From Phycisphaerales bacterium (GTDB lineage: Bacteria > Planctomycetota > Phycisphaerae > Phycisphaerales > UBA1924), in assembly GCA_022072615.1 (NCBI GenBank), contig JAJVHS010000010.1:1-64000 (forward strand): DNA of 64,000 nucleotides, written 5' to 3'. Below, one piece after another: positions 36,804-43,969 of this stretch (the stretch's first letter is position 1; each line of letters opens with the position of its first letter). A program made the translations under genes and the position numbers. The notes under the pieces are model-generated. The model saw nothing but the letters and a program-made list of their open reading frames with translations. It ran no database searches and was not told the origin of the DNA.

Positions 36804-39401
36804 TCAGACTTCCTGCGTGATCTGCGTGAGGTTCTGCTCGGACCAGACGTCGGTCGCGGGGTTCCACCACAGGCGGATGACCTCGCCGCCCTCGGTGGAG
36901 CTGATCATGCTCATGCTCTGATCGCCGCCCGGGGCCGAGAGGCCGGTCACCGGCCCCACGGTGTGGGTCGCGTTGGGAACGACATCGCGGAAGTAGGCGA
37001 CGTTCCACTGGTCGTTGTTGAAGCCGGGGACCCACCAGTAGACGCTGATGGTGCCGTCGGTTTCGCGGCCGGCGATGTTCATCGCGCCCCACGAGGTGGT
37101 CCAGCTGGTCATGCTGTTGGCTTCGAGCAGCGGCCCGCCGATGATGTCGGTGAGGTTGTCGTTGTTCCACTGCTCGTTGTTGTAACCGGGCACCCACCAG
37201 GTCGCGGAGAGCTTGCCGTCGGTGTCGGTGCCGGCGATGTTGATGGCGTTCCAGCTCGTGAGCCAGACGGTGAGCCCGCCGGTGAGGGCGGCGGCGCCGG
37301 TCTGATCGCTGAGGTTGTTGGTGGTCCACTTTCCGGCGGTGGCGAGCGACTGGTGCCACCAGACGGCCTGGATGTCGCCATTGGCGTCGAGGCCGACGAC
37401 GTTGAGGGCGTTCCACGGGGTGACGAAGCTGGTGATGCGGCCGGTGAACTGCGGCATCGTCAGGCCCTGGTCGCGCAGCTCCTGGCCGTGGTTGACGGCC
37501 GTCCAGGCGTAGTTCTCGGCGGTGCCGGTCTGGTAGTAGCGGATCAGGTCGCCGTTGGCCGCGACACCGGCGATGCTGACCATGTTGTCGATCGAGTTGA
37601 AGGTCGTGAGGTTGCCGGTGATCGCGGGCGTGCCGGGCACCAGGATGCTCAGGTTCGTGTACGTCCACGTGCCCGAGTTGTCCTTGAACACCACGAGGCC
37701 TTCGGTGGTCATCGCGGCGGCGTAGCTGAGGCCGTCCTTGGCATCGACCCAGGTGACGACTTCGCCGACGATCGGCGGGCTGCCCGCCTTGGTCTGGAGG
37801 TTCGACCCCGTCCACTCCTGCGAGGAGCCGGGCTTCTGCATGACGACCGGGAAGCCCTGGGCGTTGCGGATGGTGACGTTGATGTTGCCCGAGGTGCCCG
37901 CCGACGCGCCGATGAGCTGATCGGGCGCTGCGGCAAAGAGCGACTCGGAGAGAACGGTCAGCGGCGCCGACACGACGGTGCTCGACTGGGTGTCGCTGTC
38001 GACCGCCACCGCCAGCAGCGAGGCCGATCCGAGGGTCACGGTGAGCGGCACCTGGTACGACAGGGTGTACCCGCCATCGGCGTTGTCGTCGGAGCCGATC
38101 AGCTCGCCCGCGTCCGCGACGCCGTCGCCATCGGCATCAAGATAGAAGTCGACGCGCGTGATCGTGCCGTCGGTGTCCGAGACGTTGTTGGCCGTCAGCG
38201 TGACCGTCTGGCCGCGGGCGATGAAGGCGGCGGACGGGGTGAGCGACCCGACCGTGGGCACACCCGCGTACTCGAAGGCGCCGATGTCGATCGCGTTGCC
38301 GCGGACTCTGGACAGCCCGCGCTGGTCGGTGGTCAGGCCGCCGGTGTTGCTGCCGGCGTTGATCGCCGGGCTGCCGGGCTGGAGCGCGATCGTCTGCGTG
38401 GGGCCCCCGTTGTCGGCGAGGGCTCCCAGCAGGGGATCGACGCCGACGAGGTTGCCGTTGACGTCGTTGCCCAGGCCGCCGGAGTTGTCGACGTGCTGGA
38501 TGAGGTTGTTGGCCGAACCGGCGGCGAAGGTGCCGACCATGGGGGCGGTGGGCGCGCCGCCGATGATCGAGCTGTGCAGCGTGAGCGCACCGCTGTTGGT
38601 GATGGCGGGAGCGCCGGTGTTGCCCGCGATGGTCGAGTTGGAGACGGTGAGGGCGTTGAAGTTGATGATGGCCGCGCCGTCGAGGGAGGCGGTGTTGTTG
38701 GCGATGGTCGAATTGGTGATGGTCGTGGCGACGCCGAAGTTGGCGATGCCGCCGCCGCCGGTCGCGTTGTTGCCGGAGATGGTCGAGCTGCGGATGGTCA
38801 GCGTGCCGCCGTTGCGCACGCCGCCGCCGTCGCCAATACCGCCGTCGTTGCTCGCGACCGTCGAGTCGATCAGCGTCAGCGTGCCCAGGTTCTCGATGCC
38901 GCCGCCCCCGCCGACGGTGGCGCTGTTGTTGATGATGCGCGAGCCGGTGATGGTCAGCGTGCCCGAGTTGCGGACGCCGGCGCCGTTGAACGCGTTGCCG
39001 CCGCCGATCGTGACGCCACTGAGCGACGAGGTGCCGGCCGTGAACTCCATGACGCGGACGGCGTCGTTGCCCGAGATGCGCAGCAGCGAGGCGCCGGGGC
39101 CGTTGATGGCGACCGAATCGGTCACGATCAGGCCGGTGTCGGCGAGCGTGATGACGCCGTTGACGGCGGCGTCGAACTCGATCACGTCGGCGCCGTCGGC
39201 GGCGTTGGCGTCGAGGATCGCCTGGCGCAGCGACCCGGCACCGGCGTCGGCGACGTTGATCACCGTGAAGACGGCCAGCAGCGCGCGGGGCTCGAGCTGC
39301 TCGGCGGACACCCGGTCAGCGCCGCGGCCGCTCCGGGCCTTCCCGGCGTTCTGGATCATCGAGCGGGACCGACCAAGCACGCGGTTCAACAGACCCTTCA
39401 T
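36804..39401 (-). CDS. LEPR-motif surface protein with a beta-helix and C-terminal beta repeats
   Basis: An 865-residue exported protein. The N-terminus has a basic stretch and EQLEPRALLAVF, the LEPR motif that marks many planctomycete surface and secreted proteins. Residues about 45-310 are a right-handed beta-helix with short Gly/Asn/Thr repeats (GSLRQAILDANAADGADVIEF, NSGTLTITGSRIINNSATV), ending in the element AINAGSNTGGLTTDQRGL...AIDIGAFEY typical of such proteins. An Ig-like segment follows (about 385-490). The C-terminal 370 residues hold about six repeats of 50-55 residues with aromatic patterns such as WWVPGYNNEQWNNDNLTDI. Probably a cell-surface adhesive or structural protein. The antisense frame on the plus strand is also long and open, but it is a shadow. 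Confidence 0.85.
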   Translation of the reverse strand: MKGLLNRVLGRSRSMIQNAGKARSGRGADRVSAEQLEPRALLAVFTVINVADAGAGSLRQAILDANAADGADVIEFDAAVNGVITLADTGLIVTDSVAINGPGASLLRISGNDAVRVMEFTAGTSSLSGVTIGGGNAFNGAGVRNSGTLTITGSRIINNSATVGGGGGIENLGTLTLIDSTVASNDGGIGDGGGVRNGGTLTIRSSTISGNNATGGGGIANFGVATTITNSTIANNTASLDGAAIINFNALTVSNSTIAGNTGAPAITNSGALTLHSSIIGGAPTAPMVGTFAAGSANNLIQHVDNSGGLGNDVNGNLVGVDPLLGALADNGGPTQTIALQPGSPAINAGSNTGGLTTDQRGLSRVRGNAIDIGAFEYAGVPTVGSLTPSAAFIARGQTVTLTANNVSDTDGTITRVDFYLDADGDGVADAGELIGSDDNADGGYTLSYQVPLTVTLGSASLLAVAVDSDTQSSTVVSAPLTVLSESLFAAAPDQLIGASAGTSGNINVTIRNAQGFPVVMQKPGSSQEWTGSNLQTKAGSPPIVGEVVTWVDAKDGLSYAAAMTTEGLVVFKDNSGTWTYTNLSILVPGTPAITGNLTTFNSIDNMVSIAGVAANGDLIRYYQTGTAENYAWTAVNHGQELRDQGLTMPQFTGRITSFVTPWNALNVVGLDANGDIQAVWWHQSLATAGKWTTNNLSDQTGAAALTGGLTVWLTSWNAINIAGTDTDGKLSATWWVPGYNNEQWNNDNLTDIIGGPLLEANSMTSWTTSWGAMNIAGRETDGTISVYWWVPGFNNDQWNVAYFRDVVPNATHTVGPVTGLSAPGGDQSMSMISSTEGGEVIRLWWNPATDVWSEQNLTQITQEV

Positions 39402-39667: not shown

Positions 39668-39841
39668 TCAGCGACCGGCCTTGCGGCCCGGTGATTTGGC
39701 TCGACCGTCTTTCGAGCGCTGCTTGTTGACGGTCCGGGCGGCGATCTCCTTGGCGCGCTTGGTGGACCGGCCTTGTGCGCGCTCGCTCGATTTGACGTGC
39801 TCGTATTGTCGTTCGTCCTTGGCGGACCATGCCTTGGGCAT
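39668..39841 (-). CDS. Possible internally initiated small protein (MPKAW family) at the end of ligD
   Basis: A 57-residue unit in the ligD frame beginning with ATG at 39841, eight bases after AAGGAG (complement of 39851-39856). It reads MPKAWSAKDERQYEHVKS and RAKEIAARTVNKQRSKDG, ending in a Lys/Arg-rich tail. As a free protein it has the normal length and start of its family. Whether it is made alone, only as the LigD tail, or both, cannot be decided from sequence. A run of six A bases (complement of 39864-39869) just upstream might allow frameshifting or may hide a sequencing error. Confidence 0.5.
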   Translation of the reverse strand: MPKAWSAKDERQYEHVKSSERAQGRSTKRAKEIAARTVNKQRSKDGRAKSPGRKAGR

Positions 39842-42691
39842 CGGTTTGACTCCTTGAGATGTCCTTTTTTCGCGTGAAGGGCCGTCATGAAGGCCAGATG
39901 AGCCGTTCATGAGTGCAGCCGGTGTGGACGCGGGGCGTGGGTCCAGTCCAGCCCGCCGGAGCACCTTGGCCAGGGACGTTCTGCTCTTCTCGAAGGCGGC
40001 CCATGGATCACGCTTCTGGCGCCGGAGCCGGTCGAGGACGTCGGCCGCGTGGAACGTGACGAGTGTGTCGAGGGCGTCGAGTTCCTTCCAGTCGAACGGG
40101 ACGGCGATCGGCGCGCCCGCGCGGGCCCGCGTTGAGAAAGGCGCGATGGAGGTCGCGCCGCGGCTGTTGCGGAGGTAATCGAGAAAGATCAGACCCTTGC
40201 GGCGGGCCTTGGTGGAGACCGCGATGAATCGATCGGGCTGCTGCGCGGCGAGCGACTTGGCGAAGGCCGAGCAGAACTCCTTGACCGGCTCCCACGCAAG
40301 GTCGGGCGTGAGGGGAACGACGACGTGAAGCCCCTTGCCACCCGTGGTCTTGAGGAAGCAGGCCAGGCCAAGGGCTTCCAAATGCTTGCGGACTTCGAGC
40401 GTGGCTCGGCGGAGCTCGTCGAACGAGACTCCTTCGCCGGGATCAAGGTCAAAGGTGAGCGTGTCGGGCTGATCGATGTGGTCGCGCGTGGAACCCCACG
40501 GATGGATCTCCAGGACGCCGAACTGCACCAGCGAGACCAATCCCTCGACCGAGTCCACGGCGATGTAGTTCGCTTCCTCACCGTCCTGCTCGCGCACGCG
40601 GATGGATTTCACGGGCCCGTTGCTGAACGTCTCGCGGACGTGCTTCTGGAAGAAGCACTGACCGGCGATCCCTTCGGGGCAGCGGACGGTGCTGAGGGGA
40701 CGGCCGACGAGGAATGGCAGCATGCGAGTCGCGACGGCTTCGTAGTACCGAGCAAGATCGAGCTTGGTGAGGCCGGCGCCGGGGTAGAGGACGCGGTCGG
40801 GATGGGTGATGCGCACGCCCGCGACCAGTGAATCGGAGTCGGCAGTGTTCCGCGAGCGCGCGGGCATGGGAGCTTCCTTGGATTCGCCGCCCGACGCGGA
40901 GCGGGCGCGGCGCGCGGACCGAGCGGGGCGCTTTGATGCTGATTCCGCCACCTCTTCCACCGGCACGGGGACTTCCGGGCGGACGAGAGCCGCTTTCTTG
41001 TCCTCGCGCAGGCCCTGGAACGACGGATGGCGCAGCCTTCCGTCATCGGTCCATTCGGTGAACTCGATTTCGCCGACGAGCTCGGGCTTCACCCACGTGA
41101 CGCCGCGGGTCTCGGCTCGCGTGAGGGTTTCACTCAGCGGCGTCGCCTCGATCCTGCGGTCGTCGAGCTTGCGCTTGATGTCGGCGAGCGTTTCGTCGTT
41201 GAACCCGGTTCCGACGCGCCCGGCGTAGTGAAGCTCGCCCTGGGGGTCGTAGGTGCCAAGCAGCAGCGACCCGAAGTGTGAGCGCGCGCCCGAGGGCTTC
41301 GACCAGCCCACGATCACGAACTCCTGGCGACGCGAGCACTTGACCTTCAGCCACGACTTCGACCGGGCCTGGGTGTAGGGGGCGTCGGCTCGTTTGCAGA
41401 TGATCCCTTCGAGCGCAAGCTCGCACGCGTTCTTCCGGACGGCCTGGCCGCTGCCGACCACGTGATCGGAGTAGCGCACCATGCCCGCCGCGTCGCCGGG
41501 AACCAGCGGCTTCAGGAGCGTTTTTCGATCGATGAGCCTGGCGTCGAGCAGGCTGTACCCGTCGAGGTACGGCAGGTCGAACACGTAGTACACCATGCGG
41601 TCGGACGACCCGGCCTTGAGCGCGTTCTGGAGGCGCTGGAACGATGGATGACCATGGTCGTCGAGCACCGTCAGCTCGCCGTCGAGCACGGCGGTATTCG
41701 CGTCCAGCGCCGCGACGGCCCGGGCGACGGGCTCAAACTTCCGCGTCCAGTCGGCTCCGGACCGCGTAAGCAGGCGGACGTTCCGACCGTCCTTGATCGC
41801 GATGATGCGGTAGCCGTCGTACTTGATCTCGTGGAGCCACGCGGGCCCGGGCGGGGCCTCGTCGGTCAGCGTGCAGAGCTGCGGGTAGAACTCCCGCGGG
41901 AGCGGGGCTCGCCGCGCGCCATCGACCGCGGACGGATCGACGGCGTCGCCGGCCGCCGCGGGGGCCTCCGCGGCTCCCCGCGCCATGCGGGCCGACTTTC
42001 GCGATCGCGCCCGCGGCCGAGCCGGATGCGAGTTGCCGGATCGATGGTCGGGCCGTTTCTTGGGCTTTTCGTCGTTGCGGCGCGTGCTGCTGCTCGACCA
42101 CACCGCCGTGGACTTTGCGATCTCCTCCATCGTGCGGCCGGTTTTCACGCTGGTGACGTGCTCGGTCACGACCGACTCGCCGGGCGTGCGGGCGTGATCA
42201 TCGTCAGTCTTGATGAGCAGCCAGTTGTCCTTGCTGTCATCGGATCCGCTCCGCGTGCCGGCCAGGCGAACGAGTTTCCAGCCGCCGCGGAGACGCTTGC
42301 CGCGGAGCTCGAACTCGAGCTTGCCGCGTTTGATGGCTCGGGCGGGGTCCTCGCCGGGCTTTGGGGTCCATGTGCCCGTATCCCAGAGCATCACCGTGCC
42401 CCCGCCGTATTCACCCTTGGGGATGGTGCCCTCGAACTCGCCGTACTCGAGGGGGTGATCCTCGACGTGGACGGCGAGGCGTTTGTGCGACGGGTCGACC
42501 GACGGCCCCTTTGGAACGGCCCACGACGCGAGCACATCCCCCACCTGGAGGCGCAAGTCGTAGTGCAGGCGGGTGGCGTCGTGCTTCTGGATGAGGTACT
42601 TGAGCGTGCCGGAGCCGGCGGGGACGCCGCCGCCGCGCGGCTCGGCGGTCTTCTTGAAGTCGCGCTTCTGCCTGTAGCGTTGAAGGCCCAT
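39668..42691 (-). CDS. ligD: Multifunctional DNA ligase LigD with an appended small domain
   Basis: A 1007-residue protein acting with Ku in non-homologous end joining. Domain order is phosphoesterase (about 1-165, RLHYDLRLQVGDVLASWAVP), ATP-dependent ligase (about 265-560, with the nucleotidyl Lys in HEIKYDGYR), and polymerase/primase (about 640-925, metal Asp pair in TFDLDPGEG, and TTGGKGLHVVVPL). The last 57 residues (39841-39668) match a separate family of short proteins that start MPKAWSxKDERQYEH and contain RAKEIAARTVNKQR; these are sometimes labelled plasmid stabilisation proteins. The frame has no stop between the two. An AAGGAG lies eight bases before the internal ATG at 39841, so a free small protein may also be made. 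It follows ku by 15 bases on the same strand. Confidence 0.94.
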   Translation of the reverse strand: MGLQRYRQKRDFKKTAEPRGGGVPAGSGTLKYLIQKHDATRLHYDLRLQVGDVLASWAVPKGPSVDPSHKRLAVHVEDHPLEYGEFEGTIPKGEYGGGTVMLWDTGTWTPKPGEDPARAIKRGKLEFELRGKRLRGGWKLVRLAGTRSGSDDSKDNWLLIKTDDDHARTPGESVVTEHVTSVKTGRTMEEIAKSTAVWSSSSTRRNDEKPKKRPDHRSGNSHPARPRARSRKSARMARGAAEAPAAAGDAVDPSAVDGARRAPLPREFYPQLCTLTDEAPPGPAWLHEIKYDGYRIIAIKDGRNVRLLTRSGADWTRKFEPVARAVAALDANTAVLDGELTVLDDHGHPSFQRLQNALKAGSSDRMVYYVFDLPYLDGYSLLDARLIDRKTLLKPLVPGDAAGMVRYSDHVVGSGQAVRKNACELALEGIICKRADAPYTQARSKSWLKVKCSRRQEFVIVGWSKPSGARSHFGSLLLGTYDPQGELHYAGRVGTGFNDETLADIKRKLDDRRIEATPLSETLTRAETRGVTWVKPELVGEIEFTEWTDDGRLRHPSFQGLREDKKAALVRPEVPVPVEEVAESASKRPARSARRARSASGGESKEAPMPARSRNTADSDSLVAGVRITHPDRVLYPGAGLTKLDLARYYEAVATRMLPFLVGRPLSTVRCPEGIAGQCFFQKHVRETFSNGPVKSIRVREQDGEEANYIAVDSVEGLVSLVQFGVLEIHPWGSTRDHIDQPDTLTFDLDPGEGVSFDELRRATLEVRKHLEALGLACFLKTTGGKGLHVVVPLTPDLAWEPVKEFCSAFAKSLAAQQPDRFIAVSTKARRKGLIFLDYLRNSRGATSIAPFSTRARAGAPIAVPFDWKELDALDTLVTFHAADVLDRLRRQKRDPWAAFEKSRTSLAKVLRRAGLDPRPASTPAALMNGSSGLHDGPSREKRTSQGVKPMPKAWSAKDERQYEHVKSSERAQGRSTKRAKEIAARTVNKQRSKDGRAKSPGRKAGR

Positions 42692-42706
42692 GGCGAGTGA
42701 GCGGCG

Positions 42707-43558
42707 TCAGCCGGCCTTGCGTCTGGATGGCTCCTTGCGCGGCGCCTTCCGCTGGGTGGTACGGGCCCGGGGCTCGGCGTGCGCGAGGCTCCGTTTGAGC
42801 GCCTCCATGATATTGATCGGCGCAGGGGCTTCCTCTTCGGGGAGTTCGCCCTCGGCGACGGGCTCTGTCCGCCCGGTGTCGATCTTCTTCTGGATCCAGT
42901 TCATCAGGGCTTGGCGGTACTCGTCGTGGTACTGGTCGGGCTTCCACTTCTCTTCCATGGACGCGACGAGCGTCCTGGCCATCTTGAGCTCGGCCTTGGT
43001 GACGCCGACCGACTGGGCGTCGCCGGGGAGCTTGAGGTCCCTGAGCGAGCGCAGCTCGGCGTGGTAGCGGAGCAGGTTGAGGATCAGCGCATCGCCGCGT
43101 GGCACGAGCGCGGCGATGTACTGACGGGTGCGGATGACGACCTTGGCGATCCCGGCCTTGCCCGATTCCTTGAGGGTTTCGCGGAGCAGGACGTAAGCCT
43201 TCTCACCCTTGGGCCCAGGTTCGAGGTAGTACGGGGTGTCGAAGTACACCAGGTCGATCTCCGCCAAATCCACGAAGCCGGCAATCTCGACGGACTTTGT
43301 GACCTCTGGGGCGGCGCGCTTGAGCTCCTCGTCCGTCAGGAGCACGTAGTTTCCTTCCTCGTACTCGTAGCCCTTCACGATACGGTCCCACGGGACCTCC
43401 TCTCCGGTCTGGGCGTTCACCCGCTCGTACTTGACCCGAGCGGAATTCCGCGAGTCCACCAGGTGCAGGCTGAGCTCGCTGCGCTGCTCGGCCGGATAGA
43501 GCGTCACCGGGACGTTGACCAGCCCGAAGGTGATGTGCCCTTTCCAGATCGGACGCAT
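42707..43558 (-). CDS. ku: Non-homologous end joining protein Ku
   Basis: A 283-residue bacterial Ku from the ATG at 43558 (MRPIWKGHITFGLVNVPVTL), the usual family start; the open frame continues 54 residues upstream with Arg-rich sequence. Ku forms a homodimeric ring on DNA ends and recruits LigD. Core motifs are ADPEV-free but typical: WDRIVKGYEYEEGNYVLLTDEE, FVDLAEIDLVYFDTPYYLEP and VPRGDALILNLLRYHAELR. The tail after about residue 255 is Lys/Arg-rich, as in Ku proteins that bind DNA and LigD through the C-terminus. ligD follows 15 bases downstream. Confidence 0.96.
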   Translation of the reverse strand: MRPIWKGHITFGLVNVPVTLYPAEQRSELSLHLVDSRNSARVKYERVNAQTGEEVPWDRIVKGYEYEEGNYVLLTDEELKRAAPEVTKSVEIAGFVDLAEIDLVYFDTPYYLEPGPKGEKAYVLLRETLKESGKAGIAKVVIRTRQYIAALVPRGDALILNLLRYHAELRSLRDLKLPGDAQSVGVTKAELKMARTLVASMEEKWKPDQYHDEYRQALMNWIQKKIDTGRTEPVAEGELPEEEAPAPINIMEALKRSLAHAEPRARTTQRKAPRKEPSRRKAG

Positions 43559-43969
43559 GTCGCGAGCTCCGCTCGGGCCTCCGGCACGTGGCCGGACGAT
43601 CCGGGCGCGTCGAACTGGTCGTGACGGGCTAAGCACCCGGTTGCCTGTCCATGAATCCGGTTTCACTTCTTTTCGCGCCGAGCGCTTTCCGCGGCGCGAC
43701 GAGCGCGTCCCCTGACGCATGCTGAACCCGCTTGTGCGAACAGCGGGCGAAAAGACCGGTCACACGCACGGGCTGTACGCGAGACCGGCCTCGCCCCTGC
43801 CGCGCACAACATCACACGCACTGTGGATGAGTGATCCAGCAGGTATCACAAGTCTCATGCGCGACTCGCGATACGCAGCGCACCGACGTGACCGCCACGG
43901 GCAAGGTCCGTGTCACGGCATCGGAACAGATTCGGCGCCGACGCAGGCGGATGCGGGACCGAAACCTGA
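43559..43969. other. Intergenic interval upstream of ku
   Basis: About 410 bases between the GH43 stop and the ku start, both on the minus strand. No credible gene was found. A possible inverted repeat GTGAT-N9-ATCAC (minus strand) lies near 43831-43849 and could be a binding site. The ku-ligD promoter should be here. Confidence 0.4.

Follow-up and report, generated by a model that had tools for sequence, protein, structure and literature searches.

In-frame joining of ligD to a downstream gene for a small basic protein in a Phycisphaerales bacterium, and the association of the small family with bacterial NHEJ

Bacterial NHEJ is usually presented as the work of two proteins. Its presence tracks genome size and slow growth (PMC7719229), and in Sphingopyxis the EcfG general stress regulon includes the ku-ligD pair (PMC7083833). 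The locus described here, from the Phycisphaerales bacterium assembly GCA_022072615.1, adds to such a pair a small gene of a family several relatives of which bear the label 'plasmid stabilization protein' in plasmid records, a name that is annotation only. In the 64,000-nucleotide stretch of DNA analysed (hereafter the window), the whole unit is ku-ligD-small and occupies 39668-43720 on the minus strand, whereas the original prediction had dealt with 39668-39870 only. Its features are the following.

42707..43720, minus strand: Ku, with PF02735 at 42980-43528 (E 3.5e-49)
39842..42691, minus strand: LigD frame as far as the small gene's ATG, with PE at residues 35-142, ligase at 282-565 and Pol at 642-897
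39842..39940, minus strand: 33-codon linker that follows LRRAGLD, coding score -0.51 bits/codon, GC3 0.48
39865..39870, minus strand: A6 run (T6 on the plus strand), which shows no sign of being a functional frameshift site; beyond it the other two frames stop at +329 and +523 past the small ATG
39850..39855, minus strand: AAGGAG, a Shine-Dalgarno-like motif read from the sequence, 8 bases 5' of the small ATG
39668..39841 (stop included), minus strand: 57-residue basic small protein, the short MPKAW form without Rho_N tail

A Pfam and NCBIfam scan placed PE, ligase and Pol domains and the DNA ligase D model up to about residue 915, PF13298, PF01068/PF04679 and PF21686 being far over their cut-offs and TIGR02776 scoring 674 bits. 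It is a LigD of NHEJ by the presence of Ku in the same genome and adjacent to it, upstream on the minus strand across a gap of 15 bases. The N-terminus of Ku is uncertain, the conserved start MRPIWKG lying about 53 codons inside the called ORF. The ORF that contains ligD (39668-42691, minus strand) has 1007 codons and no internal stop, and its LigD frame continues, uninterrupted by any stop codon, into a small protein of 57 residues, a complete member of an orphan family. The LigD relatives found within the same family and order stop soon after the Pol domain, for instance with MSKVGLR or MREAVGLE as last residues, which match LRRAGLD in the window. The small protein is absent from these relatives, one of which, a same-genus protein, bears a longer basic tail. 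Another observation concerns the same-genus genome G001, in which only the Pol domain of LigD was seen, in a 428-codon ORF whose start looks unrelated (L009 / L178). Neither Ku nor a ligase domain was found near this ORF, which is a LigD that is truncated or in decay. The window also has, downstream of the small gene, an ORF of 865 residues (36804-39401, minus strand); judged by eye, its repeats resemble those of a secreted or surface protein with a right-handed beta-helix.

The last 57 residues of the LigD ORF (39671-39841) read MPKAWSAKDERQY...GR, and in full MPKAWSAKDERQYEHVKSSERAQGRSTKRAKEIAARTVNKQRSKDGRAKSPGRKAGR. They had been proposed to equal a complete protein that normally stands alone, and this was confirmed by 80 GTDB loci with relatives that begin at the same methionine and share 58-84% identity. 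The core of the small protein has no entry in Pfam, NCBIfam, PHROGs or the PDB sequences. The family core of about 50 residues follows the pattern K-x-E-x-Q-Y-x-H ... A-x-x-T-V-N-K, and all invariant columns of the family alignment A1 are present in the window protein. The A1 profile matches that protein with an E of 1.4e-29, a value to which the window sequence contributes as a row of A1; the 58-84% pairwise matches are independent of this. The branches of the family are homologous, since the A1 profile reached 44, 41 and 29 bits where the best of 1000 shuffles reached 17. The Pseudomonas genes PA2143-PA2146 may, as a guess, include relatives as well. By direct count the small protein holds 18 K/R against 6 D/E, and its predicted structure is a two-helix model (residues 7-22 and 27-45, pLDDT 82); a fold search with this hairpin gave no match below E 2.8. 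Longer relatives carry an additional Rho_N-like C-terminal tail, and the basic hairpin together with the tail of these long forms suggests that the small protein may bind nucleic acids. An origin of the family in phages or plasmids was rejected. It is rare in phages and viruses (one phage record and four viral contigs), and the plasmid matches (21 and 211 records) come mostly from Streptomyces and Rhizobium, those opened being large replicons. A Streptomyces (L175) and a Deinococcus (L176) plasmid each have a DUF6766 gene no more than about 2 kb from the small gene, of which it is a possible conserved stress-island partner.

The sequence itself shows that the small protein lies in frame with LigD, that no stop intervenes and that AAGGAG precedes its ATG by eight bases. 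No more than 18 bases from the ATG, a Shine-Dalgarno 4-mer is present in 83/83 free-standing copies of the small gene and at 23% of ATGs in the same DNA, which argues that AAGGAG belongs to the small gene's own leader and speaks for a free product. Taken alone the motif is not exceptional, as it ranks 5th among 60 ATG/GTG codons inside LigD. Since the small gene has retained its own Shine-Dalgarno site, its start is probably still used and yields a free protein of 57 residues.

The linker differs from the sequences that it joins. With a coding score based on codon usage trained on the other long ORFs of the window, 32-codon segments of LigD have a mean of +0.42 bits/codon (sd 0.14, minimum +0.04), and both flanks of the linker score as coding (+0.27 for the last Pol codons, +0.24 for the small ORF). 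The linker itself, in a test that rests on 33 codons, falls to -0.51 bits/codon, near the mean of out-of-frame LigD (-0.56). No other LigD-fused copy was found in the 80 GTDB loci, in 25 other planctomycete matches or in 31 Pseudomonadota genomes. Among 150 genomes of the window's own family, 15 hold any match and none a LigD-fused copy, and G001 has a free copy of the small gene on a different contig. A selected fusion is therefore unsupported, given the non-coding composition of the linker and a fusion seen only once in the survey; positions 39842-39940 are likely a former intergenic spacer that is read through in frame. In simulations such a spacer was stop-free and in phase in about 0.24 of cases, a generous figure as the linker's own composition was used, and a join that chance provides about once in four needs no special explanation.

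We therefore consider it fairly probable that the locus consists of an ordinary ku-ligD pair and a third, same-strand small gene, joined by the loss of the LigD stop. The third gene would encode a small basic helical-hairpin protein. The LigD stop, expected shortly after LRRAGLD, would be missing through mutation or consensus error, and the LigD frame would then cross the former spacer into the small gene. With its own Shine-Dalgarno site kept, the latter would go on yielding the free protein, while translation of LigD would add a tail that is likely inert. Against this stop loss it counts that the window assembly shows one ORF and that a single genome represents the species. One could instead suppose a functional gain, the basic hairpin having become a C-terminal domain with which LigD binds nucleic acids, and internal initiation perhaps supplying a free form. 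The frame open across the join, the basic character of the small protein and the co-occurrence of its family with NHEJ (see below) agree with such a functional fusion, but it appears unlikely in view of the non-coding linker, the single case in the survey and the frequency with which chance leaves a spacer open and in phase. The original prediction had one gene that could yield a fused and a free product, which is possible in principle given the open frame and the internal Shine-Dalgarno site; a selected fusion is what lacks support.

An error of sequencing or assembly, by which a miscalled base or an indel upstream of the linker stops would hide a real stop, overlaps with stop loss and is itself improbable. 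In its favour, the source assembly is a draft in 104 contigs with a completeness of about 92%, and the other two frames stop at -68 and -46 relative to the small ATG. No positive sign of error was found, however, and homology backs the present frame through LRRAGLD. Nor can the A6 run be the site. It had been put forward both as a place of frameshifting and as the seat of a frameshift error that conceals an ordinary adjacent pair, and neither idea survives, since after a frame change at A6 the next stops come 329 or 523 bases past the small ATG. With programmed frameshifting LigD would cross the small gene in the wrong frame, and an indel or miscall at A6, from which no stop is met before the small ATG, would not separate the two genes. 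Their separation needs a frame change upstream of the -68 or -46 stops, or a substitution.

Apart from the join itself, the family is statistically linked to NHEJ, as had been surmised from the window. The tests that follow take related genomes as independent and leave genome size outside. Of 392 genomes of Planctomycetota, 26 have the family and 47 have Ku, and both occur in 13 where 3.1 are expected (P 7e-7). Counted by genus, both are present in 10 against 2.8 expected (P 5e-5). Four of the 26 family matches are weak (E above 1e-6), and without them Ku accompanies 10/22 (P 5e-5). In 299 genomes of Pseudomonadota, the family matches (31) are mostly of the MPRGDK...AWATVNK branch, and Ku is found in 61 genomes and both in 27, against 6.3 expected (P 2e-17). 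Among 199 genomes from one proteobacterial order, the LigD Pol domain is present in 22/24 genomes with an N-terminal family match and in 81/199 overall (P 5e-8). The proposed survey of ku/ligD neighbourhoods was also fruitful: in that order five small genes lie within 10 kb of a ligD Pol domain against 0.12 expected, of which three probably share one ancestral arrangement; at least three arrangements are represented. In L188 the small gene sits between ku and ligD, and in L187 it lies about 1.1 kb from a Pol gene. A match to Ku or LigD no more than 8 kb away was further seen in six loci from Amycolatopsis and in one each from Streptomyces and Stackebrandtia.

Around the small gene lie topoisomerase IB, glycogen enzymes (GlgX among them), DUF3175 and DUF6766. 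We take SDR- and DUF892-like genes, named by eye, to be among the neighbours too. The link with NHEJ could thus reflect lifestyle only, i.e. large, slow-growing and stress-exposed genomes with common stress islands and no functional contact. This competes with a repair role of the family, and leaves the loss of the LigD stop in the window untouched; we give it a little less than an even chance. Such neighbours, the correlation of NHEJ with genome size and slow growth (PMC7719229) and the place of ku-ligD in the EcfG regulon of Sphingopyxis (PMC7083833) all agree with it. The closeness within 10 kb in one order, by contrast, exceeds chance to a degree for which genome size alone is insufficient, although stress islands would suffice. 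With stress genes among the neighbours, a common function in stress has the same likelihood as a direct part in repair, and these neighbourhoods together with the EcfG regulon indicate that the family may serve a stress programme of which NHEJ is one part, and not the joining step itself. Very unlikely, in our opinion, is the strongest form of a repair role, in which the family would be an NHEJ accessory that binds DNA ends with Ku and LigD, here welded to LigD and still made free internally. The family is best described as a stress-associated accessory, probably nucleic-acid binding, that often accompanies NHEJ, any direct part in repair being conjectural. Among the papers searched, none joins 'plasmid stabilization protein', LigD and general stress, and none mentions DUF7218, a domain discussed below.

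The joined gene of the window points to the small family as an NHEJ candidate. A widespread family whose core has no Pfam or NCBIfam model and which tracks Ku across phyla is a candidate third, stress-linked component of NHEJ, and its gene a candidate NHEJ or stress accessory. If the link is a shared stress regulon only, the poorly named 'plasmid stabilization protein' family still gains a testable context.

Among described proteins, the closest to the small protein are those labelled 'plasmid stabilization protein' (the actinobacterial and planctomycete MPKxW and proteobacterial MPRGDK proteins), with which it shares a full-length match from the first methionine, an own Shine-Dalgarno site and the A-x-x-V-N-K core. 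They are free-standing and many have the C-terminal Rho_N-like tail, whereas the window holds the short form without it. An own Shine-Dalgarno site and an upstream stop are the habit of all other copies, though not needed for homology; in the window the former is present and the latter absent. ChaB (PF06150) bears a weak resemblance to the AWATVNK helix, but membership was rejected, with 14.4 bits against a cut-off of 27 in one protein shown and a best E among scanned members of 0.047, which is not significant. Membership of DUF7218 (PF23855) is likewise unsupported, the Pfam scan of P0002 having given no hit to it. In four genomes of one proteobacterial order (G983, G858, G958 and G897; L194-L197) a DUF7218 + Rho_N small protein immediately precedes Ku-LigD and shares its strand, apparently in a three-gene operon. 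Like the window protein these are small, basic, on the same strand as ku-ligD and adjoining it, and their Rho_N-like tail is like that of the long MPKxW form. They differ in being upstream of ku-ligD, where the window gene is downstream, and N-terminal homology is not established: the small family scores no better than shuffles against the N-terminal part of DUF7218, with an hhalign probability of 34%. Compared with bacterial LigD (NCBIfam TIGR02776 / PRK05972), finally, the window LigD has complete PE, ligase and Pol domains in the known order with ku directly upstream, and differs by about 90 extra C-terminal residues, of which 57 are those of a separate orphan family.
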